Assembly (NCBI RefSeq): GCF_004011825.1
Contig: NZ_RKLO01000002.1
Location: 372,001 to 436,000, forward strand
Direction of reading: 5' to 3'
DNA: 64,000 nucleotides
DNA from: Rhodococcus xishaensis
Lineage (GTDB): Bacteria > Actinomycetota > Actinomycetes > Mycobacteriales > Mycobacteriaceae
Numbering within the stretch: the stretch's first letter is position 1; every line of letters begins with the position of its first letter. The notes under the pieces are model-generated. The model did no database searches and had not been told where the DNA came from. It saw nothing but the letters and a program-made list of their open reading frames with translations. Below, in pieces: positions 19,679 to 37,176 of this stretch. The position numbers and the translations under genes are program-made.

Positions 19679-20370
19679 TCTTCATCGGCGAAGGAGCCTT
19701 GCTCTGGCGTGCGGTCCGGGCTGCCACCGCGGGCGGATACCGCGTCGACCTCGTCTGCACCCGCTCCGACCAGACCGCACCCGACCAAGTCCCGGTGCTG
19801 AAGACCCGCGACGTCAACACCGACGCCATTCGGATCAAGTCCGCGTGCAGTGACGGGCTCGTCTGGTCGATCAACAACCCAACGATCCTCAGGGCCCCTC
19901 TCCTCGACTTCGGACTGCGGATCTACAACATCCACAACGGGCCGCTACCGGCCTATCGCGGGCGCCCCGAGATTGCGATCACGTATGCGCTCCTCAACGG
20001 TGAGACCCGCTACGGGGCAACCCTCCACGAGGTTGACCATGGCGTCGACACCGGTGCCGTCCTCGACGTCGAAGAGTTCCCGATCCGGCCAGAGGACCGG
20101 TTTCAGGAGGTGATGATGACCGGACTGCGTGCCTGCCACACCCTGTTCGAACGCAATCTCGATGCCGCAGTGAACGGGCTTCTCACTCCGGCCAAGCCGT
20201 CCACCGTCGGTGGCGGCTACTACGGACGCGAACGCCTCGAAGAGTTGGCCGGCTACCGCGGTAGCTCCCGCTACGACCGGGCGGGCCACCTCGGCGTGTT
20301 CACACCTGTGTACCCCGACCTGGCTGCCGCGCTCGCGGATCCGGCCACGGCCGAAAGCGCACATTCGTGA
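19675..20370 (+). CDS. LstF-like formyltransferase
   Basis: 231 aa from GTG 19675 (GTGA overlap with the NRPS stop). It is the methionyl-tRNA/GART-type formyl transferase fold using 10-formyl-tetrahydrofolate. The catalytic set is visible: Asn85 and His87 in NIHNGPLPAYRG, and Asp125 in HGVDTGAVLD. It lacks the C-terminal tRNA-binding domain of Fmt (about 310 aa), which fits a small-molecule role. In lipstatin the equivalent enzyme formylates the amino group of the leucine moiety; here I infer N-formylation of the residue carried by the NRPS. Confidence 0.85.
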   Translation: MIFIGEGALLWRAVRAATAGGYRVDLVCTRSDQTAPDQVPVLKTRDVNTDAIRIKSACSDGLVWSINNPTILRAPLLDFGLRIYNIHNGPLPAYRGRPEIAITYALLNGETRYGATLHEVDHGVDTGAVLDVEEFPIRPEDRFQEVMMTGLRACHTLFERNLDAAVNGLLTPAKPSTVGGGYYGRERLEELAGYRGSSRYDRAGHLGVFTPVYPDLAAALADPATAESAHS

Positions 20371-22577: not shown

Positions 22578-23050
22578 GACAGGCCCCGGCTTCTGGGGTC
22601 GGGTCCGGTACCGAGAACTCGTAGAAATATTGCTGGACAACCGATTACGTTTGGCACTTCGGTCTCGGCGCGCTGTAGATCGAATAGAACCGCCCAATTC
22701 CTCGCACGACCACGGAACCGATCCGCGGTTGAGGACGTCCAACTGAGCGAACGGAACTGATATCAGTGGTGGACGCGGGGGAGAGGGCGAATGGATCGGT
22801 GCGCGAGAGCTGCGACGTTTCGACTGCCGACTTCTTGCCGATCGGGGAGGCTCCGTAGCAGCAGTCGGCTGTCAGCTGGGTGCTGGCGACGGCAGATCGT
22901 GGCCGACACCGATGAGCCGCCGCAGCCACGACGACCTGATGAATCGGCCCCCGACGTCGGCGACCACGAATGACGCCGGAGAAGCGGGGGATGCAACACA
23001 CCACGCATCGCGCTCCTTGGTGGTTGTGTGGGCTTTCGGTGATTCCCCGG
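22578..23050. other. Intergenic region before the propeller array
   Basis: 473 bp between the MMPL gene and the first conserved propeller leader. I see no credible gene; short frames on both strands lack start signals and coding bias. Nothing else is recognised. Confidence 0.5.
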
Positions 23051-23161
23051 TCTGATCCGGATTGTGGTTGTTAGCCTCGTTTCGGCAGGTGGTCGGGTCC
23101 GGCCGCCGGTTGGCTTGCTGCATGGCCTGTCCGTTTTGTTCCTCAGATGTAGGAGAGAAAT
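23051..23161 (+). promoter_or_regulatory. Leader of propeller gene 1
   Basis: Conserved leader with candidate -10 TAGCCT at 23072-23077 and RBS GTAGGAGAG before ATGTGA, in which GTG is the start. The block CATGGCCTGTCCGTTTTGTT is shared by most of the array. Promoter activity is inferred from position and conservation. Confidence 0.55.
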
Positions 23162-24274
23162 GTGAATCGGCTCAGTGGTTTTCGAGGTCACCGCACGGCC
23201 GCGGGGCGCGCCGTGCGTCTGGTGTTCGGGGTGACGGCTACTTCTGCGATGGTGCTGGGCATGGCCGGGATCGGTGCGGGGGCCGCGGCAGCGGGTACCG
23301 TCACCGAAGCGATTCCGGTCGGGAACGGCCCGGATGGGGTGGCGGTGGCCCCGTCCGGGGCACGTGTCTATGTAGCCAACTTCGACGACGACTCGGTGTC
23401 GGTGGTCGAGACTGCCGGCAACACCGTGGTCGACGCCATCGACGTCGGGGACGGCCCGCAAGGGGTGGCGGCGAGCGCGCACGGTTCCCGCGTCTACGTC
23501 ACCAATTCCCTGGACGACACCGTCTCAGTGATCCGAACAGGCACCAACGCTCTGGTTGACACCGTCGATGTCGGGGACAACCCGCGTGGGGTGGCGGTGA
23601 GCCCGTTCGGTTCCCGCGTCTACGTCGCCAACTTCTCCGACGATTCGGTGTCGGTGATCGACACCCGCACGAACGAGGTAGTCAAGACCATCCCGGTTGG
23701 GGACGGACCGCAGTTCGTGGCGGCAAGCCCGCAGGGTTCTCGCGTCTACGTCACCAACACCCTGGACGACACGGTGTCGGTGATCCGCACCGGTAGCAAC
23801 ACCCTAGTTGACACCGTGAACGTCGGAGACGCGCCGACCGGGGTGGCGGTGCACCCGGACGGGACCTACGTGTATGTGAGCAACAGCGCCGACGGCACGC
23901 TATCGGTGATCGAAATGTTCAGGAACACCGTGGTCGACGACATTGCGGTCGGGGACGCGCCGGTCGGGGTGGCGGTAGCCTCCGACGGGTCGAGCGTCTA
24001 CGTGACAAACGAGGTGGGCGACTCGGTATCGGTGATCGAAACCTACAGGAACACATTGGACGACACCATCGAAGTAGGGGACGGCCCACGGGGGGTGGTG
24101 GTGACCCCGGGCGACTCCCGGGTCTACGTGGCCAACAATGTGGACGACACGGTATCGGTGATCGCCGTCGACACATGCTCCGGATCGTTCTGCATCGGCA
24201 CCGGATCGCTCGGATCGCTGGCGGGCGGTAGTTCCCCAGTCAGCTTCGGTTCGACGGGCAGCATCGGCAGCTGA
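23162..24274 (+). CDS. Secreted seven-bladed YVTN beta-propeller protein, copy 1
   Basis: 370 aa, GTG start. A signal peptide (MNRLSGFRG, Arg-rich stretch, hydrophobic core to GAAAAG, about residue 41) is followed by seven blades of about 42 residues with consensus VGDxPxGVAVSPDGSRVYVTN-xxDDTVSVI, the YVTN/YncE repeat. Residues near the C-terminus hold CSGSFC, then a divergent Ser/Gly tail ending GSTGSIGS. Exported propellers of this type act as binding scaffolds, and none has a catalytic motif I can see. First of the array, 585 bp after the MMPL gene. Ligand and function unknown. Confidence 0.88.
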   Translation: MNRLSGFRGHRTAAGRAVRLVFGVTATSAMVLGMAGIGAGAAAAGTVTEAIPVGNGPDGVAVAPSGARVYVANFDDDSVSVVETAGNTVVDAIDVGDGPQGVAASAHGSRVYVTNSLDDTVSVIRTGTNALVDTVDVGDNPRGVAVSPFGSRVYVANFSDDSVSVIDTRTNEVVKTIPVGDGPQFVAASPQGSRVYVTNTLDDTVSVIRTGSNTLVDTVNVGDAPTGVAVHPDGTYVYVSNSADGTLSVIEMFRNTVVDDIAVGDAPVGVAVASDGSSVYVTNEVGDSVSVIETYRNTLDDTIEVGDGPRGVVVTPGDSRVYVANNVDDTVSVIAVDTCSGSFCIGTGSLGSLAGGSSPVSFGSTGSIGS

Positions 24275-24299
24275 CACCCACATCGCGGTGAGTTAGGGC

Positions 24300-24329
24300 G
24301 CCGCCACCGACGATCGTGTCGGCGGCGGC
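24300..24329 (+). terminator. Hairpin after propeller gene 1
   Basis: GCCGCCACCGAC (24300-24311) pairs with GTCGGCGGCGGC (24318-24329), one mismatch, 6-nt loop. Confidence 0.65.
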
Positions 24330-24380
24330 GTCGTTCGGCCTGCGAGCCGTGTGTCTGTTTCGGTGATTCGGGCGTCGGAG

Positions 24381-24485
24381 CCGGTTTTGGGTTGTTAGCC
24401 TCCTTTGGGCTGGTGGTCGGGTCTGGCCGCTGGTTGTCTCGCTGTATGGCCTGTCCGTTGTGTTCCTCTGATGTAGGAGAGAAAT
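24381..24485 (+). promoter_or_regulatory. Leader of propeller gene 2
   Basis: Candidate -10 TAGCCT at 24396-24401 in the invariant GTTGTTAGCCTCC, then the shared block and RBS GTAGGAGAG. Confidence 0.55.
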
Positions 24486-25526
24486 GTGAATCGGCTCAGT
24501 GGTTTTCGAGGTCGCCGAACGGCTGGGAGGCGCGCCGCACGTGCGATGTTCGGGGTGGTATCTGTTTCTGCGATGGCGCTGGGTGTGGCGGGAATGGGGG
24601 CGGGTGCCGCGACGGCGGACACCGTCGTCGACACTGTCCGCGTGGGGACAGCCCCGTTCGGGGTGGCGGTTAGCCCGGACGGGTCTCGCGCCTACGTCAC
24701 CAACGTTGTCAGCGATTCTGTGTCGGTGATCGACACCGCCGGCAACACGGTGATCGACAGCATCGGAGTCGGGGACGCCCCGGCTGGAGTGGCGGTTAGC
24801 CCGAACGGTTCCCACGTCTACGTCACGAACCAGTTGGAGGACACGGTGTCGGTGATCGAGACCGCCGGCAACACCGTGATCGACACCATCGAGGTCGGGG
24901 ACACCCCGGTTGGCGTGGCGACGACTCCGGACGGACTTGGCGTCTACGTCACCAACAACGGCGATGACACGGTGTCGGTGATCGAGACCGCCGATCGCAC
25001 GGTGGTCGAAACCATTGGGGTGGGGAATGGCCCGCAGTATGTGGCGTTCACCCCAAACGGGTCTCGCGCGTTCGTCACGAACGCTCTCGAAGACTCGGTG
25101 TCGGTGATCGAAACTAGTGAGAACACTCTGATGAACACCATCAGGGTCGGCGACTACCCGCGAGGGTTGGCGGTGACTCCGGACGGGCTCCGCGTCTACG
25201 TCGCCAACGGTGGTAGCGACACGGTGTCGGTGATCGATACCGCCACGGACACCGTGGCCCAGACGATTCCGGCCGAAGATTTCCCGTGGGGGTTGGCGCT
25301 GACCCCGGACGGCTCCCGCGCCTACGTCACCAACCTCTACGACGCTTCGGTGTCGGTGATCGACACCGCCACGAACTCAGTGGTCGAGAGGATTCGAGTT
25401 GGGAACTACCCGTACGGAGTGGCGGTGAGCCCTGACGGATCCCCGGTCTACGTCGTCAACCATGAGGCCTCGACGGTGTCGGTGATCGCCGACGGGACCT
25501 GCTTCGGATCGTTCTGCACCTCCTGA
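24486..25526 (+). CDS. Secreted YVTN beta-propeller protein, copy 2 (tail-less)
   Basis: 346 aa, GTG start, with signal peptide to GAATA and seven blades. It ends immediately after the cysteine motif (CFGSFC-TS), so it is the only copy without the Gly/Ser tail. The following 270 bp are longer than the usual intergenic gap and contain no leftover tail in frame. Its blades are among the most diverged in the array (blade 4 RAFVTNALED, blade 6 VPAED-type), suggesting an older copy. If the tail anchors the protein to the envelope, this copy would be released. Confidence 0.87.
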   Translation: MNRLSGFRGRRTAGRRAARAMFGVVSVSAMALGVAGMGAGAATADTVVDTVRVGTAPFGVAVSPDGSRAYVTNVVSDSVSVIDTAGNTVIDSIGVGDAPAGVAVSPNGSHVYVTNQLEDTVSVIETAGNTVIDTIEVGDTPVGVATTPDGLGVYVTNNGDDTVSVIETADRTVVETIGVGNGPQYVAFTPNGSRAFVTNALEDSVSVIETSENTLMNTIRVGDYPRGLAVTPDGLRVYVANGGSDTVSVIDTATDTVAQTIPAEDFPWGLALTPDGSRAYVTNLYDASVSVIDTATNSVVERIRVGNYPYGVAVSPDGSPVYVVNHEASTVSVIADGTCFGSFCTS

Positions 25527-25607
25527 TCGCTGACTGGCAGTAGTCCGCTGGCCTGAGGCTGGCCGACGGGCAGCGCCCGAAGCCGACAACCAAATCGAAG
25601 GAAGAAG

Positions 25608-25643
25608 GACGCCGCCGCCGACGCCAGTGTCGGTGGCGGCGTC
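25608..25643 (+). terminator. Hairpin after propeller gene 2
   Basis: 15-bp stem, GACGCCGCCGCCGAC (25608-25622) with GTCGGTGGCGGCGTC (25629-25643), 6-nt loop, one G-T pair, then TTC. The strongest hairpin in the array. Confidence 0.75.
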
Positions 25644-25689
25644 TTCGTGCGGCCTGGTGGGTGTGGGACCTGTTCGGTGATTCGCGGGC

Positions 25690-25799
25690 CTGATCCGGTT
25701 TGTGGTTGTTAGCCTCCTTTCGACTGGTGGCCGTCTCCGGCCTCCGGTTGTCTCACCGCATGGCCTGTCCGTTTTGTTCCTCTGATGTAGGAGAAAAAT
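25690..25799 (+). promoter_or_regulatory. Leader of propeller gene 3
   Basis: Candidate -10 TAGCCT at 25710-25715; shared block and RBS GTAGGAGAAA before the GTG. Confidence 0.55.
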
Positions 25800-26945
25800 G
25801 TGAATCGGCTCAGTGGTTTTCGAGGTCATCGCACGGTCGGGAAGCGCGCTGCCCGTCTGATGTTCGGCGTGGCAACTGCCTCCGCGCTAGTGCTGGGGAC
25901 GGCGGGGACGGGGGCGGGGGCCGCGGCCGCGGACACCGTCATCGACACCATTCCGGTGGGGGATGGCCCGCTCGGGGTGGCGCTCACCCCGGACGGGTCC
26001 CGCGCCTACGTCACCAACGCCGCTGCCGATTCGGTGTCGGTGATCAACACGGTCACGAACACGGTGGTCGACACCGTGCCGGTCGGGGACTTCCCGCGCG
26101 GGGTGGCGGTGACGCCGGGCGGTTCCCACGTGTACGTCGCCAACTACGGTGATGACACGGTGTCGGTGATCGAGACCGCGGGCAACACGATGGTCGAAAC
26201 CGTCGATATCGGGAACGGCCCTGCGGGGGTGGTGGTGTCCCCGGGTGGGTCCCACGTGTATGTCGCCAACCACCTCGACGATTCGGTGTCGGTGATCGAG
26301 ACCGCCGGCAACACGGTGGTCGACACCGTCGACGTCGGGGACAGCCCGTTCGGAGTGGCGGTGAGCCCGAACGGGGCCAGCGTCTATGTAGCCAACCACT
26401 TCGACGCTTCGGTGTCGGTGATCGAGACCGCCGGCAACACCGTGGTCGACACCGTTTCGACGGGAAACGGCCCTTACGGGGTGGCTGTGAGCCCGGACGG
26501 GGCCAGCCTCTATGTAGCCAACTTCAGCGCCGATTCGGTGTCGGTGATCGAGACCGCCGGCAACACGGTGGTCGAAACCGTCGCGGTCGGGGACGGCCCG
26601 GTGGGAGTGGGGGTGAACCCGCTCGGGTCCCACGTCTACGCCACCAACAGCAGTGGGGACTCGGTGTCGGTGATTGAGACCGCCGACAACACGGTGGTCG
26701 AAACCGTTCCGACGGAGGATAACCCGTTCGGAGTAGCAGTGTCCCCGGACGGGTCCCGCGTCTACGTCGCCAACCTTGCCGACGACTCGGTGTCGGTGAT
26801 CGCCGTCGAGAAGTGCTTCGGCTCGCTCTGCATCGACTCTGGATTGCTGGTGGGCGGTGGCTCGACGGGTAGCGGAGGCGCCGGTTCGTTGGTGGTCGGG
26901 GGTTCGTTTGCGGGTGCCGGTTCGGCGGGCAGCGCTGGCAGCTGA
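25800..26945 (+). CDS. Secreted YVTN beta-propeller protein, copy 3
   Basis: 381 aa, GTG start. Signal peptide with cleavage near AAAAD, seven blades, CFGSLC motif and full Gly/Ser tail ending AGSAGS. Five of the seven blades end in the same linker, SVSVIET(A)GNTVV or close to it, and blades 3-5 share near-identical coding sequence, a sign of internal homogenisation. The mature part is acidic overall (many Asp) with few Lys. Confidence 0.88.
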   Translation: MNRLSGFRGHRTVGKRAARLMFGVATASALVLGTAGTGAGAAAADTVIDTIPVGDGPLGVALTPDGSRAYVTNAAADSVSVINTVTNTVVDTVPVGDFPRGVAVTPGGSHVYVANYGDDTVSVIETAGNTMVETVDIGNGPAGVVVSPGGSHVYVANHLDDSVSVIETAGNTVVDTVDVGDSPFGVAVSPNGASVYVANHFDASVSVIETAGNTVVDTVSTGNGPYGVAVSPDGASLYVANFSADSVSVIETAGNTVVETVAVGDGPVGVGVNPLGSHVYATNSSGDSVSVIETADNTVVETVPTEDNPFGVAVSPDGSRVYVANLADDSVSVIAVEKCFGSLCIDSGLLVGGGSTGSGGAGSLVVGGSFAGAGSAGSAGS

Positions 26946-26968
26946 CACCCCGCTACGGTGAGTTTGGG

Positions 26969-27003
26969 GCGCCGCCACCGACGATCGAGTTGGTGGCAGC
27001 GCG
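26969..27003 (+). terminator. Hairpin after propeller gene 3
   Basis: GCGCCGCCACCGA pairs imperfectly with TTGGTGGCAGCGC; same position as the hairpins of the other copies but weaker. Confidence 0.5.
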
Positions 27004-27046
27004 CTGCGTTCTGGTGGGTGTGTGGCCTCTTCGGTGCTTCGGGGGC

Positions 27047-27156
27047 CTGATGCGGATTGTGGTTGTTAGCCTCCTGTTGACGGGTGGTCGTCTCCGGTCG
27101 CCGGTTGTCTCACTACATGGCCTGTCCGTTTTGTTCCTCTTGTGTAGGAGAGAAAT
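27047..27156 (+). promoter_or_regulatory. Leader of propeller gene 4
   Basis: Candidate -10 TAGCCT at 27067-27072; RBS GTAGGAGAG. Nearly identical to the leader of gene 6. Confidence 0.55.
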
Positions 27157-28320
27157 GTGAATCGGCTCAGTGGTTTTCGAGGTCTTCGCGCGGCCGGGGG
27201 CCGCTCCGTGCGTCTGATGTTCGGGGTGACATCTGCTTGCGCAATGGTGCTGGGAATGGCCGGGATCGGTGCGGGGCCCGCGGCAGCGGACAGCGTCATC
27301 GACACCATTCCAGTAGGGGACTTCCCGAACGAGGTGGCGGTCAACCCATTTGGGTTCCGTGCCTACGTCGCCAACACTGACGACGACACCGTGTCGGTGA
27401 TAGACACCTCCACGAACGCGGTGGTCGCCACGGTCACGGTCGGGAACGAGCCCCGCGGGGTGGCGGTGTCTTCGGACGGGGCTCGCGTCTATGTCACCAA
27501 CCGCGACGACGACACGGTGTCGGTGATAGACACCTCCACGAACGCGGTGGTCGCCACCGTCACGGTCGAGAACGAGCCCCGCGGGGTGGCGGTGTCTCCG
27601 GACGGGGCTCGCGTCTATGTCACCAACCACGACGACGACACGGTGTCGGTGATCGACACCTCCACGAACACGGTGGTCGCCACCGTCGATGTCGGGAACG
27701 GCCCCCGGGGGGTGGTGGTGTCCCCGGACGGGTCCCGCGTCTATGTCGCGAACAGGATTGACGATTCGGTGTCGGTGATCGACACCGGCACCAACTTGGT
27801 AGACGCCACTGTCCCCGTTGGAGATCGCCCGATCGGGGTAGCTGTCACCCCGGACGGATCCGGGGTCTACGTCACCAACAACGCCGAGAGTACGGTGTCG
27901 GTGATCGACACCTCCACGAACACGGTGGTTGACACCGTCAATGTCGGGTACAGCCCGGTGGGGGTGGCGATGAACCCGTTCGGGTCTCGCGTCTACGTCA
28001 CCAATGGCGACGACGACACCCTGTCGGTGATCGAGACCCGTGGTAACACCGTGGTCGAGACCATCCCAGTCGGCGCTGCCCCTACAGGGGTGACGGTCAA
28101 CCTGCTCGGGTCCCGCGTCTATGTCACCAACGGTGGCGACGACACAGTGACGGTGATCGCCATCGAGAGGTGCTTCGGGTCACTATGCTTCGACTTCGGC
28201 TCGCTGGTCGGCGGGGGTTCGCTGGTGGGCGGTGGTTCGACAGGTAGCGGAGGCACCGCTTCGTTGGTGGGCGGGGGTTCCCTGGCGGGTGCCGGCTCGG
28301 CAGGCAGCGCCGGCAGCTGA
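27157..28320 (+). CDS. Secreted YVTN beta-propeller protein, copy 4
   Basis: 387 aa, the longest copy, GTG start. Seven blades. Blades 1-3 carry the same closing strand and linker, VSVIDTSTNxVV, with nearly identical DNA, so a blade-sized duplication or conversion is likely. The extra length comes from the tail, in which the SLVGGG unit is present twice in a row. Cysteine motif CFGSLC. Blade 1 begins VAVNPFGFRAYVAN, the version shared with copies 6 and 7, which indicates exchange between copies. Confidence 0.88.
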   Translation: MNRLSGFRGLRAAGGRSVRLMFGVTSACAMVLGMAGIGAGPAAADSVIDTIPVGDFPNEVAVNPFGFRAYVANTDDDTVSVIDTSTNAVVATVTVGNEPRGVAVSSDGARVYVTNRDDDTVSVIDTSTNAVVATVTVENEPRGVAVSPDGARVYVTNHDDDTVSVIDTSTNTVVATVDVGNGPRGVVVSPDGSRVYVANRIDDSVSVIDTGTNLVDATVPVGDRPIGVAVTPDGSGVYVTNNAESTVSVIDTSTNTVVDTVNVGYSPVGVAMNPFGSRVYVTNGDDDTLSVIETRGNTVVETIPVGAAPTGVTVNLLGSRVYVTNGGDDTVTVIAIERCFGSLCFDFGSLVGGGSLVGGGSTGSGGTASLVGGGSLAGAGSAGSAGS

Positions 28321-28346
28321 TAGCCGTGGTGCGACGAGTTGCGGGT

Positions 28347-28376
28347 GCCGCCACCGGTGATCGTGTCGGTGGCAGC
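28347..28376 (+). terminator. Hairpin after propeller gene 4
   Basis: GCCGCCACCG (28347-28356) with CGGTGGCAGC (28367-28376), 10-nt loop, one mismatch. Confidence 0.6.
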
Positions 28377-28420
28377 GCCTCGCGCCTTCGGTGTGTAAGG
28401 CCTCTCGGTGCGTCGTGGGC

Positions 28421-28531
28421 TTGATACGGTTCCTGGCTGTTAGCCTCCTGTCGGCTGGCCGTCGCCTCCGGCCCGCCGGTTGTCTCACTGCATGGCCTGT
28501 CCGTTTTGTTCCTCTCGAGTAGGAGAGAAAT
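28421..28531 (+). promoter_or_regulatory. Leader of propeller gene 5
   Basis: Candidate -10 TAGCCT at 28441-28446; the shared block continues to RBS GTAGGAGAG. Confidence 0.55.
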
Positions 28532-29677
28532 GTGAATCGGCTGAGTGGTTTTCGAGGTCGCGGCACAGTCGGGGGGCGCGCCACCCGACTGATACTCGGG
28601 GTGACGGCTGCCTCTGCGATGGTGCTGGGAATGGTCGGAATCGGTGCGGGGGCCGCGGCGGCCGGGACCGTGATCGACACCATCCCGGTGGGGGATGTCC
28701 CGCTCGGGGTGGCGGTCAGCCCGGACGGGTCCCGCGTCTACGTGTCCAACGTCATCGGCGATTCGGTGTCGGTGATCGACACCCTCACGAATAGCGTGGT
28801 CGACACCGTTGCGGTCGGGGACGGTCCGTTCGGAGTCGCGGTGTCCCCGGACGGGTCCCGCGTTTACACCGCCAACAGTCAAGGCAATTCGGTGTCGGTG
28901 ATCGACACCGGTACGAACGCTGTGATTGACACCGTCGTGGTGGGAGTCTTCCCGATCGGGGTGGCGGTCACCCCTGACGGATCTCATGTCTACGTCACCA
29001 ATGTCAGCAGCGATAATGTAATGGTTATCGAAACTGCCGGTAATACGGTGGACGATACCTTTGTGACCCAGGACGGCCCGAACGGGGTTGCGGTATCCCC
29101 GGACGGGTCTCGCGTTTACGTCTCCAACGCTGGTAGTGCTTCGGTGTCGGTGGTCGAGACCGCCGGCAACACTGTCGTCGACACCGTTTCGGTCGGCGTC
29201 TCCCCGCAGTTTGTGGCGGTGAGCCCGGGCGGGTCCCGCGTCTACGTCGCCAACGGAATCGACGATTCGGTGTCGGTGATCTCCACCTTCACTAATAGCG
29301 TGGTCGACACAGTAACGGTCGGGGACAACCCGAACGGGGTGGCGGTGTCCCCGGACGGGTCCCGCGTCTACGTCACCAACGTTGGTGGCGATTCGGTGTC
29401 TGTGATCGCGACACTCGGTAACACCGTGGTCGAGACCATCCCTGTCGGAGGCTCCCCGGCCGGGGTGGCGTTCACCCCGTTCGGATTCCGCGCCTATGTC
29501 GCCAACCCTGACGACGACACGGTGTCGGTGATCGCCGTCAACAGGTGCTCCGGATCGCTGTGCATTGGCGCTGGATCGCTGGTGGGCGGTGGTTCGACGG
29601 GTAGTGGGGGTACAGGTTCCTTGGCCGGCGGAGGTTCGTTGGCGGGTGCCGGTTCGACGGGCAGCGCCGGAAGCTGA
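28532..29677 (+). CDS. Secreted YVTN beta-propeller protein, copy 5
   Basis: 381 aa, GTG start. Signal peptide, seven blades, CSGSLC and a full Gly/Ser tail. Blade 3 is unusual: its last strand reads DNVMVIETAGNTVDD instead of the near-universal SVSVI, and blade 4 opens VTQDGPNGV. The DNA there (about 29000-29070) also departs from the array's codon pattern, with more AT-rich codons, so this stretch has escaped homogenisation. The rest follows the consensus. Confidence 0.88.
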   Translation: MNRLSGFRGRGTVGGRATRLILGVTAASAMVLGMVGIGAGAAAAGTVIDTIPVGDVPLGVAVSPDGSRVYVSNVIGDSVSVIDTLTNSVVDTVAVGDGPFGVAVSPDGSRVYTANSQGNSVSVIDTGTNAVIDTVVVGVFPIGVAVTPDGSHVYVTNVSSDNVMVIETAGNTVDDTFVTQDGPNGVAVSPDGSRVYVSNAGSASVSVVETAGNTVVDTVSVGVSPQFVAVSPGGSRVYVANGIDDSVSVISTFTNSVVDTVTVGDNPNGVAVSPDGSRVYVTNVGGDSVSVIATLGNTVVETIPVGGSPAGVAFTPFGFRAYVANPDDDTVSVIAVNRCSGSLCIGAGSLVGGGSTGSGGTGSLAGGGSLAGAGSTGSAGS

Positions 29678-29700
29678 CATCTGCGCGGTGAGTTGGGGGC

Positions 29701-29730
29701 GCCGCCACCGGTGATCGTGTCGGTGGCGGC
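29701..29730 (+). terminator. Hairpin after propeller gene 5
   Basis: Perfect 10-bp stem GCCGCCACCG (29701-29710) / CGGTGGCGGC (29721-29730), 10-nt loop. Confidence 0.7.
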
Positions 29731-29775
29731 GTCGCACGTTCTGGTGGATGTGGGGCTCTTCGGTGCGTCGGGGGC

Positions 29776-29884
29776 CTGATGCGGATTGTGGTTGTTAGCC
29801 TCCTGTCGGCTGGTGGTCTCTCCGGTCGCTGGTTGTCTCACTGCATGGCCTGTCCGTTTTGTTCCTCTTGTGTAGGAGGGAAAT
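29776..29884 (+). promoter_or_regulatory. Leader of propeller gene 6
   Basis: Candidate -10 TAGCCT at 29796-29801; RBS GTAGGAGGG. Confidence 0.55.
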
Positions 29885-31030
29885 GTGAATCGGCTCAGTG
29901 GTTTTCGAGGTCACCGCACGATCGGGAGGTGCGTCCGACGTCTGATGGTCGGAATGACATCCGCTTGCATCATGGTGCTGGGTATGGCCGGGATCGGTGC
30001 GGGGACCGCGGTAGCGGATACCGTCATCGACACCATTCCGGTGGGGGATTTTCCGAGCGGTGTGGCGGTCAACCCATTTGGATTCCGTGCCTATGTAGCC
30101 AACAGCGACGACGACTCGGTGTCGGTGATCGACACCGTTACGAACACGGTGGTCGACACCGTGACGGTCGGGGACTCCCCGCGCGCGGTGGCGGTGAGCC
30201 CGGACGGGTCCCGCGCGTACGTCTCCGAGGCCGACGCCGACACGGTGTCGGTGATCGAGACCGTCGGTAACACCGTGAGCGTGACCATCCCAGTCGGCGA
30301 CTTCCCTACTGGGGTGGCGGTGTCCCCGGACGGGTCCCGCGTCTACGTCGCCGAACTCTTCGACGATTCGGTATCGGTGATCGAGACAGTCGGTAACACC
30401 GTGGTCGATACGATCCCACTCGGCGCCGCCCCTACAGGGGTGGCGGTGTCCCCGGACGGGTCCCGCGTCTATGTCGCCAATAATGTGGGCGACACAGTTT
30501 CGGTGATCGACGCCGGGACAAGCACGGAGCTCACTACCATCGCGGTGGGGAACAGCCCGCGCGGGGTGGCGGTCACCCCGGACGGGTCTCGCGTTTATGT
30601 CACCAACAGACTTGACGACACGGTGTCGGTGATCGACACCGACACGAACACGGTGGTCGACACCGTGACGGTCGGGGATCGCCCGGTTAGGGTGGCGGTG
30701 TCCCCGTTCGGGTCCCGCGTCTACGTCACCAACCTCTTGGACGATTCCGTGTCGGTGATCGAGACCGCTGGGAACACGGTGGGCGAGATCGTCCCCGTCG
30801 GGGACTCCCCGATCGGGGTGGCGATAGCCCCGTTCGGGTCCCGAGCCTATGTCACCAACAGCGACGGCGACACGGTGTCGGTGATCGCTGTCGAGCGGTG
30901 CTCAGGTTCGTTGTGCATCGCCACCGCATCGCTGGCGGGCGGCGGTTCAACGGGCAGCGGTGGCACCGGTTCGCTGGTGGGCGGGGGTTCCCTGGGGGGT
31001 GCTGGTTCGGCGGGCAGTGCCGGCAGCTGA
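29885..31030 (+). CDS. Secreted YVTN beta-propeller protein, copy 6
   Basis: 381 aa, GTG start. Signal peptide ending near TAVAD, seven blades, CSGSLC and the Gly/Ser tail. Blade 1 carries the NPFGFRAYVAN variant shared with copies 4 and 7. Two blades replace the usual YVTN/YVAN by YVSEADAD and YVAELFDD, so the Asn of the signature is lost twice in this copy. Upstream and downstream flanks are nearly identical to those of copy 7. Confidence 0.88.
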   Translation: MNRLSGFRGHRTIGRCVRRLMVGMTSACIMVLGMAGIGAGTAVADTVIDTIPVGDFPSGVAVNPFGFRAYVANSDDDSVSVIDTVTNTVVDTVTVGDSPRAVAVSPDGSRAYVSEADADTVSVIETVGNTVSVTIPVGDFPTGVAVSPDGSRVYVAELFDDSVSVIETVGNTVVDTIPLGAAPTGVAVSPDGSRVYVANNVGDTVSVIDAGTSTELTTIAVGNSPRGVAVTPDGSRVYVTNRLDDTVSVIDTDTNTVVDTVTVGDRPVRVAVSPFGSRVYVTNLLDDSVSVIETAGNTVGEIVPVGDSPIGVAIAPFGSRAYVTNSDGDTVSVIAVERCSGSLCIATASLAGGGSTGSGGTGSLVGGGSLGGAGSAGSAGS

Positions 31031-31056
31031 CACCCGTGCTGCGGTGAGTTGAGGGT

Positions 31057-31086
31057 GCCGCCACCGGTGATCGTGTCGGTGGCGGC
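31057..31086 (+). terminator. Hairpin after propeller gene 6
   Basis: Perfect 10-bp stem GCCGCCACCG (31057-31066) / CGGTGGCGGC (31077-31086). Confidence 0.7.
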
Positions 31087-31131
31087 GTCGCACGTTCTGG
31101 TGGATGTGGGGCTCTTCGGTGCGTCGGGGGC

Positions 31132-31241
31132 CTGATGCGGATTGTGGTTGTTAGCCTCCTGTCGGCTGGTGGTCGTTTCCGGTCGCTGGTTGTCTCACTG
31201 CATGGCCTGTCCGTTTTGTTCCTCTTGTGTGGGAGAAAAAT
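31132..31241 (+). promoter_or_regulatory. Leader of propeller gene 7
   Basis: Candidate -10 TAGCCT at 31152-31157; RBS GTGGGAGAAA. Confidence 0.55.
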
Positions 31242-32390
31242 GTGAATCGGCTCAGTGGTTTTCGAGGTCATCGCACGGTGGTCGGGAGGCGTACCGCCCG
31301 TCTGATGTTCGGGGTGACATCTGCTTGCGCAATGGTGCTGGGGATGGCCGGGATCGGTGCGGGGACCGCGGCGGCGGATACCGTCATCGACACCATTCCG
31401 GTGGGAGGCTCTCCGATCGGGGTGGCGGTCAACCCCTTTGGGTTCCGCGCCTACGTCGCCAACGATGATGACGACTCGGTGTCGGTGATCGACACTGTCA
31501 CGAACACGGTGGTCGACACCGTCACGGTCGGGGGTGCCCCGAACATGTTGGCGGTCACCCCGGACGGGTCCCGCGTCTACGTCGCCAACAACGACGACGA
31601 TTCGGTGTCGGTGCTGAACACCGTCACGAACACGGTGGTCGCCACCGTGACGGTCGGGGACGGCCCGTTCGGGGTGGCGGTGTCTCCGGACGGGTCCCGC
31701 GTCTACGTCGCCAACAGAATCGATGGTTCGGTGTCGGTGATCGACACCGGCACAAACACGGAGATCGACACCGTGACGGTCGGGGACGGCCCCCGTGGGG
31801 TGGCGGTATCCCCGGACGGGTCCCGCGTCTACGTCGCGAACAGCGTCGACGGTTCGGTGTCGGTGATCGACACCGGCACAAACACGGAGATCGACACTGT
31901 GACGGTCGGGGCCAGCCCCCGCGGGGTGGCGGTATCCCCGGACGGGTCCCGCGTCTACGTCGCCAACAGAATCGACGATTCTGTGTCGGTGATCGACACC
32001 GGCACAAACACGGAGATCGACACCGTGACGGTCGGGGTCAACCCCCGCGGGGTGGCGGTATCCCCGGACGGGTCCCGCGTCTATGTCACCAACAGCTCGG
32101 GCGATACGGTATCGGTGATCGCGACTGTCGGTAACACCGTGGTCGACACCGTCGCGGTGGGCGATTTCCCACTCGGGGTGGCATTCACCCCGCTCGGACT
32201 CCGCGCCTATGTCGCAAACAGTGACGACGACACGGTGTCGGTGATCGCCGTCGACGAGTGCCTCGGCTCGCTGTGCTTCGGGTTCGGTTCGCTGGTGGGT
32301 GGTGGTTCGACGGGTAGCGGAGGCACCGGGTCGTTGGTGGGCGGCGGTTCACTTGGGGGTGCTGGTTCGGCGGGCAGCGCCGGCAGCTGA
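31242..32390 (+). CDS. Secreted YVTN beta-propeller protein, copy 7
   Basis: 382 aa from GTG 31242. A GTG at 31227 is in frame but lies inside the RBS region; the chosen start matches the other copies. Seven blades. Blades 3-6 are almost exact duplicates of each other (each contains VAVSPDGSRVYVAN or YVTN, and three close with SVIDTGTNTEI), the clearest internal amplification of the array. CLGSLC motif and Gly/Ser tail as usual. Confidence 0.88.
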   Translation: MNRLSGFRGHRTVVGRRTARLMFGVTSACAMVLGMAGIGAGTAAADTVIDTIPVGGSPIGVAVNPFGFRAYVANDDDDSVSVIDTVTNTVVDTVTVGGAPNMLAVTPDGSRVYVANNDDDSVSVLNTVTNTVVATVTVGDGPFGVAVSPDGSRVYVANRIDGSVSVIDTGTNTEIDTVTVGDGPRGVAVSPDGSRVYVANSVDGSVSVIDTGTNTEIDTVTVGASPRGVAVSPDGSRVYVANRIDDSVSVIDTGTNTEIDTVTVGVNPRGVAVSPDGSRVYVTNSSGDTVSVIATVGNTVVDTVAVGDFPLGVAFTPLGLRAYVANSDDDTVSVIAVDECLGSLCFGFGSLVGGGSTGSGGTGSLVGGGSLGGAGSAGSAGS

Positions 32391-32416
32391 CACCCGCGCT
32401 GCGGTGAGTTGAGGGC

Positions 32417-32446
32417 GCCGCCACCGGCGATCGTGTCGGTGGCGGC
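32417..32446 (+). terminator. Hairpin after propeller gene 7
   Basis: Perfect 10-bp stem GCCGCCACCG (32417-32426) / CGGTGGCGGC (32437-32446). Confidence 0.7.
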
Positions 32447-32491
32447 GTGGTGCGTTCTGGTGGATCTGGGGCTCTTCGGTGCGTCGGGGGC

Positions 32492-32601
32492 CTGATGAGG
32501 ATTGTGGTTGCTAGCCTCCCTGTCGGCTGGTGGTCTCTCCGGCCGCTGGTTGTCTCACTGCATGGCCTGTCCGTTTTATTCCTCTTATGTAGGAGAAAAA
32601 T
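32492..32601 (+). promoter_or_regulatory. Leader of propeller gene 8
   Basis: Candidate -10 TAGCCT at 32512-32517, preceded by GGTTGC rather than GGTTGT; RBS GTAGGAGAAA. Confidence 0.55.
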
Positions 32602-33744
32602 GTGAATCGGCTCAGTGGTTTTCGAGGTCACCGCACGGTCGGAAGGCGCGTCTCACGTCTGATGTTCGGGGTGACAGCTGCTTCTGCGATGGTGTGGGGT
32701 ATGGCCGGGATCGGCGCGGGGGCCGCGGCAGCGAATACCGTCATCGACACGATTCCGGTGGAGAACCCGGTCGGGGTGACGATCACCCCGGATGGGTCGC
32801 GCGCCTACGTCACCAACCAATCGGAAAATTCGGTGTCGGTGATCGGCACCGGCACGAACACCGTGGTCGATACCGTCGCGGTCGAGGACTTCCCGACGGG
32901 GGTGGCGGTCACCCCGGACGGGTCCCGCGTCTACGTCACCAACCGTGACGACAATTCCGTGTCGGTGATCGGGACCGCCGGGAACACCGTCATTGACACA
33001 GTGGAGGTCGGGAACAGTCCGGTAGGGGTGGCGATCACCCCGGATGGGTCCCGCGCCTACGTCACCAACAGAGGCGGTAATGCGGTGTCGGTGATCGACA
33101 CCGCCACCACCACGGTCGTCGAGAGCGTGACGGTCGGGAACAGTCCCCGTGGGGTGGCGATTACCCCGGATGGGTCCCGCGCCTACGTCACCAACAGAGA
33201 AGATGATTCGGTGTCGGTGATCGACACCGCCACCACCACGGTCGTCGACACAGTGGCAGTCGGGAGCAGTCCGCGTGGGGTGGCGGTGACCCCGGATGGG
33301 TCCCGCGCCTACGTCACCAACAGAGGCGATGATTCGGTGTCGGTGATCGACACCGCCACCACCACGGTGGTCGACACGGTGGCGGTCGGGGACGGTCCGC
33401 GTGAGGTGGCGGTCACCCCGGATGGGTTCCGCGCCTACGTCACCAATACCGACGGTGATTCGGTGTCGGTGATCGACACCATCACCACCACGGAGGTCGA
33501 GACCGTCCCCGTCGGGGACTTCCCCTTCGGGGTGGCGGTCACCCCGGACGGGTCCCGCGCCTACGTCACCAACATTCTTGACGACACGGTGTCGGTGATC
33601 GGCGTCGACAGGTGCCTCGGGTCGTTGTGCATCGCCACGGGTTCGCTGGTAGGCGGTGGCTCGACGGGCAGTGGAGGTGCCGGTTCGCTGGTGGGCGGTG
33701 GTTCGTTGGCGGGTCTGGGGTCGGCTGGCAGCACCGGCAGCTGA
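32602..33744 (+). CDS. Secreted YVTN beta-propeller protein, copy 8
   Basis: 380 aa, GTG start. Seven blades, the first two residues shorter than normal (VENPVGV for VGDxPxGV). Blades 3-6 share TPDG(S/F)RAYVTN and blades 3-5 close with VIDTATTTVV, a linker not used in other copies, so this copy has been homogenised independently of its neighbours. CLGSLC motif and Gly/Ser tail ending GLGSAGSTGS. Confidence 0.88.
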   Translation: MNRLSGFRGHRTVGRRVSRLMFGVTAASAMVWGMAGIGAGAAAANTVIDTIPVENPVGVTITPDGSRAYVTNQSENSVSVIGTGTNTVVDTVAVEDFPTGVAVTPDGSRVYVTNRDDNSVSVIGTAGNTVIDTVEVGNSPVGVAITPDGSRAYVTNRGGNAVSVIDTATTTVVESVTVGNSPRGVAITPDGSRAYVTNREDDSVSVIDTATTTVVDTVAVGSSPRGVAVTPDGSRAYVTNRGDDSVSVIDTATTTVVDTVAVGDGPREVAVTPDGFRAYVTNTDGDSVSVIDTITTTEVETVPVGDFPFGVAVTPDGSRAYVTNILDDTVSVIGVDRCLGSLCIATGSLVGGGSTGSGGAGSLVGGGSLAGLGSAGSTGS

Positions 33745-33770
33745 TACCCGAGCTGTGGTGAGTTAGGGGC

Positions 33771-33801
33771 GCCGCCACCGGTGGTTCGTGTCGGTGGCGG
33801 C
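33771..33801 (+). terminator. Hairpin after propeller gene 8
   Basis: Perfect 10-bp stem GCCGCCACCG (33771-33780) / CGGTGGCGGC (33792-33801), 11-nt loop. Confidence 0.7.
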
Positions 33802-33846
33802 GTTGCGTTTCTTGGACGTTGTGTGGCCTCTTCGGCGATTCGTGGG

Positions 33847-33957
33847 CCTGATGTGGATTGCGGTTGTTAGCCTCCTTTCGGCTGGTGGCCGTCTCCGGGC
33901 GCTGGTTGTCTCGCTGAATCGCCTGTCCGTTTTATTCCTCTTGCGTGGGAGAGAAAT
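33847..33957 (+). promoter_or_regulatory. Leader of propeller gene 9
   Basis: Candidate -10 TAGCCT at 33868-33873. The shared block reads GAATCGCCTGTCCG instead of GCATGGCCTGTCCG; RBS GTGGGAGAG. This copy starts with ATG rather than GTG. Confidence 0.55.
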
Positions 33958-35109
33958 ATGAATCGGCTCAGTGGTTTTCGAGGTCGTTGCACGATCAGGG
34001 GACGCGCGGGGCGTGCGGTCCTCGGGGTGGCATCTGCTTGCGTCATGGTGTTGGGTATGGCCGGGATCGGCGCGGGGGCCGCGGCAGCGGACACCGTCAT
34101 CGACACCATTCCGGTCGGGGAGTTTCCGAACGGGGTGGCGGTCAGCCCATTTGGGTTCCGCGCCTACGTCGCCAACGCCGTCGACGATTCGGTGTCGGTG
34201 ATCGACACCGTCACGAATACTGTGGTCGACACCGTGACAGTCGGGGACTTCCCGCTGGGGGTGGCGGTGTCCCCGGACGGGTCGCGCGCCTACGTCACGA
34301 ATCGTGACGACGATTCGGTGTCGGTGATCAACACCTTCACCAACACGGTGGTCGACACCGTGACGGTCGGGGACGACCCCTTCGGGGTGGCGGTGACCCC
34401 GGACGGGTCCCACGTCTACGTGACCAACACCACCGGTGCGCCTTCGGTATCGGTGATCCAGACGGTCGACAACACCGTGGTCACCACAGTCGGCGTCGGG
34501 ACCTTCCCGATCGGGGTGGCGGTCACCCCGGACGGGTCTCACGTCTACGTCACCAATACCGGTGGCGATACTGTGTCGGTGATCCAGACCGTCGACAACA
34601 CCGTAGTCACCACAGTCGGGGTCGGGAACGGCCCGCTCGGGGTGGCGGTCACCCGAGACGGATCGCGGGTCTACGTCGGCAACAACGATGACGGTACGGT
34701 GTCGGTGATCGAGACTGCCGGGAACACCGTGGTCGATACCGTCGTCGGGGTCGGAGTCGGTGCCGCCGGGGTGGCGGTGACCCCGGACGGGTCCCGCGTC
34801 TACGTCGCCGACGTCGGCGACGACGCGGTGTCGGTGATCGAGACTGCCGGGAACACCGTCATCGAGACCATCCCTGTCGGGGGCGCCCCGTCCTTTGTGG
34901 CGCTCACCCCACTCGGGTCCCGCGTCTACGTCACCAACAGTGCGGACGACACGGTGTCGGTGATCGCCGTTGAGCGGTGCTCCGGATCGTTGTGCCTCGC
35001 CACCGGATCGCTGGTGGGCGGTGGTTCGACGGGCAGCGGAGGCACCGGTTCCTTGGCCGGCGGTGGTTCGCTGGCGGGTGCTGGTTCTGCGGGAAGCACC
35101 GGCAGCTGA
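33958..35109 (+). CDS. Secreted YVTN beta-propeller protein, copy 9
   Basis: 383 aa and the only copy with an ATG start (AAATATGAATCGG). Seven blades. Blade 3 has an extra residue (TTGAPSVSVI), blades 3 and 4 share the linker VIQTVDNTVVTTVGVG, and blade 6 has the odd opening VVGVGVGAAGV. CSGSLC motif and Gly/Ser tail. The hairpin downstream is eroded and the next gene lacks the usual leader top, so read-through into copy 10 is likely. Confidence 0.88.
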   Translation: MNRLSGFRGRCTIRGRAGRAVLGVASACVMVLGMAGIGAGAAAADTVIDTIPVGEFPNGVAVSPFGFRAYVANAVDDSVSVIDTVTNTVVDTVTVGDFPLGVAVSPDGSRAYVTNRDDDSVSVINTFTNTVVDTVTVGDDPFGVAVTPDGSHVYVTNTTGAPSVSVIQTVDNTVVTTVGVGTFPIGVAVTPDGSHVYVTNTGGDTVSVIQTVDNTVVTTVGVGNGPLGVAVTRDGSRVYVGNNDDGTVSVIETAGNTVVDTVVGVGVGAAGVAVTPDGSRVYVADVGDDAVSVIETAGNTVIETIPVGGAPSFVALTPLGSRVYVTNSADDTVSVIAVERCSGSLCLATGSLVGGGSTGSGGTGSLAGGGSLAGAGSAGSTGS

Positions 35110-35132
35110 CACCCGCACCTGCGGTGAGATGC

Positions 35133-35170
35133 GGCGCTGCCACCGACGAGCGCGTGTCCATGGCGACGCC
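35133..35170 (+). terminator. Degenerate hairpin after propeller gene 9
   Basis: GGCGCTGCCA (35133-35142) against TGGCGACGCC (35161-35170): two mismatches and an 18-nt loop, clearly weaker than its counterparts. Confidence 0.35.
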
Positions 35171-35235
35171 GAGCCTCGCCCGTTCGTCTCACCGCATGGC
35201 CTGTCTATTCAATTCCTCTGGTGCAGGAGGGAAAT

Positions 35236-36381
35236 GTGGACCGAATCAATAGGCTTCGAGGTCGCCGAGTGGCTGAGGGGCGCGTCGTACGTGTGATGTT
35301 CGGGATGGCATCGGCTTGCACAATGCTGCTGGGTATGGCCGGGATTGGTGCGGGGGCGGCGGCAGCGGATACCGTGATCGACACCATTCCGGTAGGAAGC
35401 GGACCTGTCGGGGTGGCGGCGTCCCCGTTCGGGTCGCGCGTCTACGTCGCCAACACCGCTGACGACTCGGTGTCGGTGATCGAGACCGTCGGCAACACGG
35501 TGATCGATACAGTCGGCGTCGGGGACGGCCCCTTCGGGGTGGCGGTCACCCCGAACCGATCACACGTCTACGTCACCAACAGATTTGACGACACGGTGTC
35601 GGTGATCGACACCGGCACAAACACGGTGGTCGACACTGTTGTGGTCGGGGACGTACCTCAAGGGGTGGCGGTGTCCCCGAACGGGTCCCGTGCTTACGTC
35701 TCCCACTTATTCAACTTCACGATGTCGGTGATCGACACCAACACCAATAGCGTGGTCGACATCGTTCCGGTCGGGAACGGCGCGTCCGGGGTGGCAGTAA
35801 CTCCGGACGGGTCCCACGTGTACGTCGTCAACGCCTTCGAGGACACAGTGTCGGTAATCGAGACCGCCGGAAACACCGTGGTCGACACCGTTACGGTCGG
35901 CGACGATCCGTCAGAGGCGGAGGTGACCCCGGACGGATCCCGCGTCTACGTCACCAACACCCTGGACGGCTCGGTGTCGGTGATCGGGACCGCCGGAAAC
36001 ACCGTGGTCGACACCGTTGCGGTTGGCGACAGCCCGTTCGGGGTGGCGGTGACCCCGAACGGGTCCGGCGTCTACATCACCAACACCGGCGAGGGGACGG
36101 TGTCGGTGATCGAGACCGCCGGGAACACGGTAGTCGAGACCGTTACGGTCGGGACCGGCCCAGCCGGGGTGGCGGTGGGCCCGTTCGGGTTCCGCGTCTA
36201 CGTCGCCAACTTTTACGATGATGCCGTGTCGGTGATCGCCGCCAGGAAGTGCTCCGGATCGTTGTGTATCGCAACCGGATCGTTGGCGCGCGGTGGTTCG
36301 ACTGGTAGTGGAGACAGCGGTTCGCTGGTGGGCGGTGGTTCTCTTGCGGGTGCTCGTTCGACGGGGAGCGCCGGCAGCTGA
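35236..36381 (+). CDS. Secreted YVTN beta-propeller protein, copy 10
   Basis: 381 aa from GTG 35236 (GTGGACCGAATCAAT); an in-frame GTG at 35221 lies in the RBS zone. The N-terminus (VDRINRLRGRRVAEG) differs from the constant one of copies 1-9. Seven blades, CSGSLC and a tail in which GSARSTGS-type variants appear (SLARGG, GARSTGS). Only 126 bp separate it from copy 9, and the segment with TAGCCT is missing, so it is either co-transcribed with copy 9 or poorly expressed. It is convergent with pgl, 39 bp away. Confidence 0.87.
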   Translation: MDRINRLRGRRVAEGRVVRVMFGMASACTMLLGMAGIGAGAAAADTVIDTIPVGSGPVGVAASPFGSRVYVANTADDSVSVIETVGNTVIDTVGVGDGPFGVAVTPNRSHVYVTNRFDDTVSVIDTGTNTVVDTVVVGDVPQGVAVSPNGSRAYVSHLFNFTMSVIDTNTNSVVDIVPVGNGASGVAVTPDGSHVYVVNAFEDTVSVIETAGNTVVDTVTVGDDPSEAEVTPDGSRVYVTNTLDGSVSVIGTAGNTVVDTVAVGDSPFGVAVTPNGSGVYITNTGEGTVSVIETAGNTVVETVTVGTGPAGVAVGPFGFRVYVANFYDDAVSVIAARKCSGSLCIATGSLARGGSTGSGDSGSLVGGGSLAGARSTGSAGS

Positions 36382-36420
36382 CATCCACGCGTTGCGCGAA
36401 CTCCTTTGGCGGAGGGTGCG

Positions 36421-37176
36421 TCAGGTCGGCAGCTGTGAGGCGGCTGCCTGGTCGAGCAGCCACCGCGTCGTCGTATGGCCACGGGCTCCGGCGGCGGGGA
36501 TCTCGACCGGGGGAGCGCCGCCGACCGCGGCCGCCACCGCCTCGGCCTTCGCTTCCCCGGACACCACGAGCCACACTTCGTTCGCGCTCCGGATCGCGGG
36601 CAACGTCAGTGTGATCCGAACCGGGGGCGGCTTTGGTGAATCGGTAACCGCGACGACGTACTGGTGTTCTTCCCGCACCGCATCGGTCTGGGGGAAGAGG
36701 GAATTCACGTGTCCCTCTCCGCCCATACCTAGGAGGTGGACGTCGAACAGCGGGCCGGTTCGCTCGGCGGCGAACACGTCGATTACCTCCGCGTACGCGG
36801 CGGCCGCGGTCACCGGATCACTACCGTACGCGCCATCCGAGGCAGCCATGACGTGAACGCGGGCCGGGTCGACCGGAACGTGGTCGAGCAACGCCTGATG
36901 TGCCTGCACCTCGTTGCGCTCGGGATCGCCTGCGGGAAGGAATCGCTCGTCACCGAAGAACACATCGAGAGCAGCCCAGTTGATCGTGCCCGGGTTGTCA
37001 CGCACGTGCTCCAGCAGGGCGATGCCCGTGCCGCCGCCGGTGAGGACGACCGCTGCCGAACCGCGTGCCTTCTGCGACGCGACGACGGCGTCGACGAAGC
37101 GCTCGGCCGTCGCACGTACGAGTGTTGCCGTGTCGGTGAAGCGGTGAATCTCGTTCCGGCTTGATGTTTCAGACAT
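36421..37176 (-). CDS. pgl: 6-phosphogluconolactonase (DevB type)
   Basis: 251 aa, ATG start with AAGGTGG upstream. It hydrolyses 6-phosphogluconolactone in the oxidative pentose-phosphate pathway. NagB/RpiA-like fold: VVLTGGGTGIALL, the DVFFGDERFLP motif, and LLGMGGEGHVNSLFP. It is the last gene of tkt-tal-zwf-opcA-pgl and overlaps the end of opcA by 8 bases. It is not related to the propeller genes next to it, although an unrelated class of 6-phosphogluconolactonases is made of seven-bladed propellers. Confidence 0.95.
   Translation of the reverse strand: MSETSSRNEIHRFTDTATLVRATAERFVDAVVASQKARGSAAVVLTGGGTGIALLEHVRDNPGTINWAALDVFFGDERFLPAGDPERNEVQAHQALLDHVPVDPARVHVMAASDGAYGSDPVTAAAAYAEVIDVFAAERTGPLFDVHLLGMGGEGHVNSLFPQTDAVREEHQYVVAVTDSPKPPPVRITLTLPAIRSANEVWLVVSGEAKAEAVAAAVGGAPPVEIPAAGARGHTTTRWLLDQAAASQLPT

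Follow-up and report, generated by a model that had tools for sequence, protein, structure and literature searches.

A ten-gene propeller array in Rhodococcus xishaensis as one site of a candidate co-regulated family of exported proteins

Why should a bacterium keep ten similar propeller genes side by side, and how did they come to differ? The question is raised by a window of 64,000 nt (nucleotides; the whole stretch of DNA analysed) from Rhodococcus xishaensis, in which ten propeller open frames lie head to tail on the + strand at 23162-36381. The first-pass annotation had described them, at these same places, as ten tandem paralogues, each with seven YVTN blades and a C-x4-C motif and nine of the ten with a Gly/Ser tail, and this description is confirmed. 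In our reading the array belongs, as one of several sites, to a family of exported propellers that is lineage-specific and co-regulated and that may form a stored repertoire of binding or interaction surfaces; as a reading of sequence, we give it a probability of about 0.45. A bolder form is doubtful, namely a fixed recognition repertoire of at least two dozen exported propellers per genome, which would share a constant scaffold and differ in a hypervariable face, answer to a single private promoter and hairpin switch, and gain new specificities through blade amplification and tandem duplication, to be kept lineage-long.

Protein architecture and the variable face

The ten proteins hold 69 YVTN-like motifs, whereas 200 shuffles averaged 1.9 and never exceeded 6. 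Three of the ten were scanned with the YVTN repeat model TIGR02276 (cut-off 27.85 bits); they scored 236, 292, and 281 bits, and in each of them 6-7 stretches passed on their own. All ten proteins have a Sec-like N-terminus with an A-x-A site (by pattern), the motif CxGSxC, and exactly two cysteines in the mature part; a Gly/Ser tail of 26-43 residues follows in nine, and of 2 residues in gene 2. The AlphaFold2 model of gene 6, the sole member modelled, has 28 strands in seven blades, with a block pLDDT (predicted local distance difference test) of 93-98 over residues 51-330 and a disordered N-terminus and tail. Across the family, exactly seven blade anchors could be chained in 46 of 57 frames and more than seven in none, the other 11 being fragments or too divergent. 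Mean protein identity in the array is 78% over the first 12 residues, 66% over the rest of the signal region, 62% over the propeller, and 78% from the first cysteine to the end, so the earlier picture of constant ends and variable middles holds at the protein level.

Each blade was taken as 42 residues, with strand limits from the gene 6 model. The most variable blade columns in this array are 38, 22, 39, 16, and 20 (3.53 to 2.87 bits); in the model, columns 17-20 form the d-a loop and columns 38-41 the b-c loop, while 16 and 22 are the adjoining strand ends. The d-a and b-c loops lie on one face of the propeller. Variability peaks at these loop columns of the gene 6 model, not at buried ones, in keeping with the earlier proposal of a binding family. 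The 81 blades of R. marinonascens have their most variable columns at 22, 38, 20, 39, and 19, and the five columns for the selection analysis were chosen in that species (an earlier choice from the same ten genes was circular). Pooled over pairs of the ten genes, nonsynonymous (dN) and synonymous (dS) divergence at these five columns are 1.15 and 0.97 (dN/dS 1.19), against 0.23 and 0.47 (dN/dS 0.49) at the remaining columns; among the 12 least diverged pairs listed, dN/dS exceeds 1 in 8 of the 11 with a defined value. The five-column code is distinct in all 60 of 60 blades.

A leader shared across the family

The family was followed in the window's own genome (G000, 3.7 Mb), a sister species (G011, 4.0 Mb), R. 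marinonascens NBRC 14363 (G041), and G140, one closed contig from the genus of R. marinonascens. G140 bears the same genus label as G162, in which the match coordinates are identical to those of R. marinonascens. To go by a title, R. marinonascens was reportedly described from the sea. Searches with gene 6 at E<=1e-60 returned 24 matches in G000, 28 in G011, and 0-3 in 12 other genomes of the window's genus; G140 has 45 matches at E<=1e-20. The 26 family open frames in the G000 stretches that were read comprise the ten of this array, nine and four in two arrays on contig C17, and one each on C20, C16, and C19. In R. marinonascens 78 stretches match at E<=1e-3; many of them sit at contig ends, so the number of genes there is uncertain. 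With family matches at or close to the ends of contigs C8, C13, C39, C52, C62, C78, and C79, short-read assemblies probably undercount the family. In the wider taxonomic family, 17 of 201 genomes match at 1e-70, with at most nine candidates per genome scored.

Most of these genes share a leader. Among the 59 upstream stretches first aligned, inspection by eye found no leader in six and only its 3′ part in the gene 10 pair; with outliers dropped, the model alignment held 51 stretches of 103 nt from three genomes, G140 staying outside the training set. A sequence-only search (E<=0.01, best 150 candidates per genome) found 22 leaders in G000, 24 in G011, 30 in R. marinonascens, and 23 in G140, the training sequences matching by construction. 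Every one of these 99 matches stops where a family gene or fragment begins (coordinates compared by eye), and 22 of the 26 G000 frames carry a leader of their own. The leader is conserved across two genera; no match was found in 17 other genomes (12 of the window's genus and five more of the wider family), among them G190, of the same genus as R. marinonascens. In G000 a further two hits, both weaker (E 0.013 and 0.19), stand before no family gene; the one at E 0.013 lies on the opposite strand within a C17 array, at G000:C17:128494-128538.

The consensus runs GGTTGTTAGCCTCC, a variable middle, TCCGTTTTGTTCCTCT, and GTAGGAGAAAAATGTG, with G9, T11, A12, C15, T16, and G27 invariant among the 51 aligned stretches. 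We take G9, T11, A12, and T16 to fit an extended -10 element (TG-n-TAnnnT), whose position would imply a 5′ untranslated region (5′UTR) of ∼80 nt. Among genes 1-9 the leader is 87% identical; the remainder of the spacer reaches 75%, and 4-fold sites in the propellers 0.70. In a predicted hairpin of 11 pairs the TCCGTTTTGTTCCTC element is linked with the Shine-Dalgarno (SD) sequence and start codon, and 94.8% of its cells pair. The leader consensus has a folding energy of -5.4 kcal/mol; whole leaders folded singly (6 of 51) gave z-scores between -2.87 and 0.29, and the 3′ hairpin a mean z of -1.47 in 49 of 51 leaders (35 below -1, 16 below -2). The probability that the SD is unpaired is 0.12 (n = 49), against 0.44 in 38 control starts, which were picked by a GGAG rule and are perhaps not all real starts. 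From these sequences the hairpin likely exists, and a regulatory role for it is possible. Within 22400-36500 there is no known RNA family at Rfam gathering scores. Sigma-70 consensus promoters number 0 against 1.6 expected, the extended -10 of the leader having no consensus -35.

In the array, all on the + strand, the leader of gene 1 lies at 23063..23164 (E 8.9e-25), with its putative extended -10 TGTTAGCCT, 5′UTR, and hairpin over the ribosome site, before a predicted exported seven-bladed propeller at 23162..24274; that of gene 2 lies at 24388..24488 (E 1.0e-24), before another predicted exported seven-bladed propeller, the one without a Gly/Ser tail (24486..25526). Model matches at 25701..25802 (E 1.0e-25), 27058..27159 (E 7.3e-25), and 28434..28534 (E 7.3e-24) precede the propellers of gene 3 (25800..26945), gene 4 (27157..28320), and gene 5 (28532..29677), and one at 29787..29887 (E 7.4e-24) precedes gene 6 (29885..31030), modelled as a seven-bladed propeller. 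The leader of gene 7 (31242..32390) is at 31143..31244 (E 3.6e-26), and those of the gene 8 propeller (32602..33744) and the gene 9 propeller (33958..35109) are at 32503..32604 (E 6.8e-23) and 33859..33960 (E 7.4e-23). Gene 10 (35236..36381) has a partial leader at 35177..35238 (model positions 43-103, without the -10 part; E 2.5e-6). Since the shared leader ends there, the starts of genes 7 and 10 were moved downstream from 31227 and 35221. With these corrected starts the spacers measure 207-213 nt, apart from a longer one of 273 nt behind gene 2 and a shorter one of 126 nt ahead of gene 10.

Two array sites are common to several genomes, with copy number differing between species. Beside pgl, and convergent with it, stand ten genes in G000, nine frames in G011 (one a fragment), two in G140, and one in R. 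marinonascens (in the stretches read); copy number is thus not fixed between species, as the first-pass proposal had expected. The larger C17 array, between an oxidoreductase gene and a solute-binding-protein gene, has eight frames in G000, eight in G011, and seven in G140 (two of them halves of one broken gene), with one further frame in G000 and two in G011 across the oxidoreductase.

Relatives without CxGSxC and without the leader (G000:C16:530906, G000:C19:181630, G011:C1:589268, G011:C12:106036, and G003:C12:588625-591205), are perhaps an older form of the family; several of the relatives lacking CxGSxC end in a GSLGSLGS-like sequence or carry a further C-terminal domain. On plasmids, 54 of 72,556 records have a relative at 1e-30, four of them from Rhodococcus, and the two Rhodococcus plasmid relatives among the matches listed align over residues 19-338 only, at 46-50%. 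Of 22 matches to the Gly/Ser tail in G000, 20 fall inside family genes or directly after them; the remaining two are weak (E 0.32 and 0.44).

Orthologues, blade amplification, and rival readings

Reciprocal-best partners in G011 exist for 13 of the 24 G000 genes with seven anchors. All six blades compared match best at their own place in 11 of these 13 pairs, while in each of the other two one blade fails; the pairs have dN/dS of 0.14-0.51. The dS between orthologous propellers is 0.051-0.358, and in nine of 13 pairs it falls below the lowest value (0.195) of six flanking genes, which share 90-94% DNA identity between G000 and G011 (dS 0.195-0.389); segment exchange between lineages, or codon constraint, could account for this. 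At the pgl site of G011, genes 1, 8, 9, and 10 each have a partner and gene 2 has two identical ones; genes 3-7 have none there, and the site holds further genes of its own. Because genes 3-7 reach a mean blade DNA identity of at most 0.79 to their best G011 gene, we read them as old or imported: they would either predate the species split and have been lost in G011, or have been acquired later. Gene 2 stops two residues past CxGSxC, as do both of its identical G011 copies (G011:C23:325622 and 328269), so its tail loss is old.

Blades are most alike within a gene. In this array, nucleotide identity is 0.733 within genes, 0.719 at the same place in other genes, and 0.713 at different places, and the within-gene value exceeds the maximum (0.723) of 2000 permutations. 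All six clusters tested exceed their 2000 permutations for within-gene likeness; in the order of the values G011:C23, with its two identical genes, is the exception (0.717 for same-place blades against 0.712 within genes). Within-gene amino-acid identity averages 64% (150 blade pairs, ten genes), the published criterion being a median above 60% per protein. The parts consulted of the paper by Pereira and Lupas (PMC9218822) describe how propellers are renewed from single blades in a cycle of amplification and decay, and the pattern here fits that renewal, now at the scale of a family.

Taken together, the presumed joint control, the constant scaffold, the one variable face, and the stable orthologues are why we place a stored repertoire first and a multi-component coat second. 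In favour of the repertoire, too, surface proteins are among the nearest solved structures, namely the Methanosarcina mazei surface-layer protein 1L0Q and the leptospiral antigen Lp49. Each protein would be exported, to judge from its N-terminus, and would fold into a seven-bladed ring, as modelled for one member, closed by a putative disulfide loop at CxGSxC; the disordered Gly/Ser tail would presumably anchor it in the envelope or act as a spacer there, the site of action being the cell surface or outside the cell. On the constant scaffold the diverse d-a and b-c loops would give each protein a different contact surface for binding. The comparisons show new members arising through turnover of whole genes, by tandem duplication and by loss, and through blade amplification inside a gene; once formed, many members are kept across species by purifying selection. 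The common promoter-like element and the 5′UTR, whose hairpin would cover the ribosome site, may switch the set on jointly.

Several points weigh against this reading. Column 7, which sits in the c-d loop of the opposite face, varies as well (2.65 bits); the pooled dN/dS of 1.19 is a crude NG86 (Nei-Gojobori) estimate from non-independent, partly saturated pairs; four of the 26 G000 family frames have no leader; and the leader hairpin has no covariation beyond that of shuffles. Between orthologues, dN/dS at columns 16, 20, 22, 38, and 39 is 0.44, not the least constrained class (other column classes have 0.20-0.65, strand d being highest at 0.65). This value of 0.44 implies that the loop codes are largely kept between species.

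A structural coat, in which the propellers would be co-expressed blocks of an envelope layer or matrix and loop diversity would serve contacts with neighbours, not outside ligands, is the strongest rival and still unlikely. By sequence (E 1.6e-87) as well as by fold (47% identity over 268 columns), 1L0Q, the surface-layer propeller of M. mazei, is the nearest solved structure, and the shared leader implies joint expression. Gene 6, however, has no PKD or other lattice domain among its 11 Pfam families; these are acidic, Gly/Ser-tailed single propellers; and the loop columns vary far beyond what repeated contact would need.

Proliferation driven by the repeats, with blades and genes amplifying and decaying and most copies mere passengers, is improbable. 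In its favour are broken, fused, or truncated family frames in all four genomes and the published amplification-and-decay cycle of propellers; against it are the dN/dS of 0.14-0.51 in the 13 orthologue pairs, the leader kept across two genera, and the concentration of variability in loop columns.

Slightly less probable again is antigenic or phase variation through recombination between copies, the source of diversity that the first-pass annotation had proposed. The arrangement of paralogues in tandem, their ends conserved and their middles variable, suggests it, as does the varying copy number, and one gene has lost ∼five blades in frame: G000:C17:123941-124516 (191 aa) keeps its signal and tail around ∼2 blades, where its partner G011:C24:336653 is a 404-residue frame with seven. 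The ten propellers nevertheless hold just three exact tracts of 45 nt or more, all within genes (two in gene 7, one in gene 3), and none between different genes of the array. At 4-fold sites, identity is 0.87 over the first 12 codons, 0.70 in the signal region, 0.63 in the tail, and 0.70 in the propeller; since signal region and tail are no more alike than the propellers there, these constant ends look like the work of selection on the protein, and gene conversion is unsupported as their cause. The first 12 codons and the leader (0.87 at the nucleotide level) alone stand out. Orthologues keep their blade order, blades are most alike within genes, and all ten array genes have a leader (partial in gene 10), as do 22 of the 26 frames of the genome, unlike silent cassettes served by one expression site. 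These comparisons are between species, not between strains of one species, and recombination between copies may have taken place at an older date. Of the earlier reading, then, a probably exported, repertoire-like family stands and between-copy recombination as its source does not; we favour a stable co-regulated repertoire formed by birth-and-death and within-gene blade amplification.

Neighbouring genes and known systems

Upstream of the array are an AMP-binding/carrier-protein gene, a formyltransferase-like gene, and an MMPL gene (20367-22577). The three, at 16646-22577, run in the same direction and resemble a small lipid or peptide pathway, the MMPL transporter being short. Downstream, and convergent, are pgl, opcA, zwf, tal, and tkt. 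Long open frames of up to 537 aa mirror the repeats on the - strand of 23162-36381 and are probably an effect of G+C-rich codon use. A PADLOC search for anti-phage defence with two proteins gave nothing for one and, for the other, a weak match to part of JetC (E 2.3e-5, 20.7 bits).

That the propellers are relatives of MSMEG_5308/Rv1057 assisting envelope transport with the MMPL transporter just upstream is very improbable: the position of that gene and weak matches to NF048007 (the MmpL3/TtfA stabiliser; 106-119 bits in three proteins) speak for it, but the equivalog cut-off is 600 bits, the MMPL protein scores 519 against an MmpL3 cut-off of 1400, and tblastn found the MMPL gene nowhere in the stretches fetched at other array sites, in R. 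marinonascens, in G140, or at G011:C24. Redundant lactonases beside pgl are the least probable of all, for although pgl adjoins the array and gene 6 passes the gathering scores of Pfam Lactonase (PF10282; 75.1 bits against 21.7, a fold-level family that does not imply activity) and YNCE (73 bits), three proteins reach 29-49 bits of the 370 for the 6-phosphogluconolactonase equivalog NF008258, pgl itself belongs to another fold family, most arrays are not beside pgl, and the propellers carry an export signal.

The arrays offer a natural protein series with one varying face on a scaffold that, like the control sequence and the genomic sites, stays constant. Related free-living bacteria can thus serve to test how blade amplification, loop diversity, and binding are connected, and through the leader alone the whole set can be found and assayed. 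If the recognition repertoire is real, it would reveal how binding diversity is stocked by a bacterium that has no adaptive machinery. In the open-access literature (subscription papers lay outside the search) we found no Rhodococcus paper on such a propeller family.

Among known systems, MSMEG_5308/Rv1057 is likewise a seven-bladed propeller in a mycolate-bearing relative, where, in the sections consulted of PMC6593404, it stabilises MmpL3/TtfA and is linked to envelope stress; there it is one gene per species with no array, and the proteins here fall far below its NCBIfam cut-off. The highly repetitive propellers of Pereira and Lupas (PMC9218822) resemble ours, as far as the consulted parts of that paper go, in having blades most alike within a gene and decayed copies, but here blade number stays at seven wherever copies could be counted, and it is whole genes sharing one kind of leader that make up arrays conserved across species. 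YncE-type secreted propellers are alike in that the Pfam YNCE score is passed and plasmid relatives are annotated as YncE family, but the NCBIfam YncE equivalog NF052280 gave 76-109 bits in three proteins against a cut-off of 400. Mayerhofer (1995) is said, going by the title, to describe a cluster of repeat-antigen genes with common motifs in M. mazei, and judged by that title alone the Methanosarcina cluster is alike as a gene cluster with common motifs. Closest is 1L0Q itself, also an exported seven-bladed YVTN propeller; it is archaeal and, by its title, joined to PKD domains, whereas the family here has a lone propeller with CxGSxC and a Gly/Ser tail, in 22-30 leader-bearing copies at several sites.

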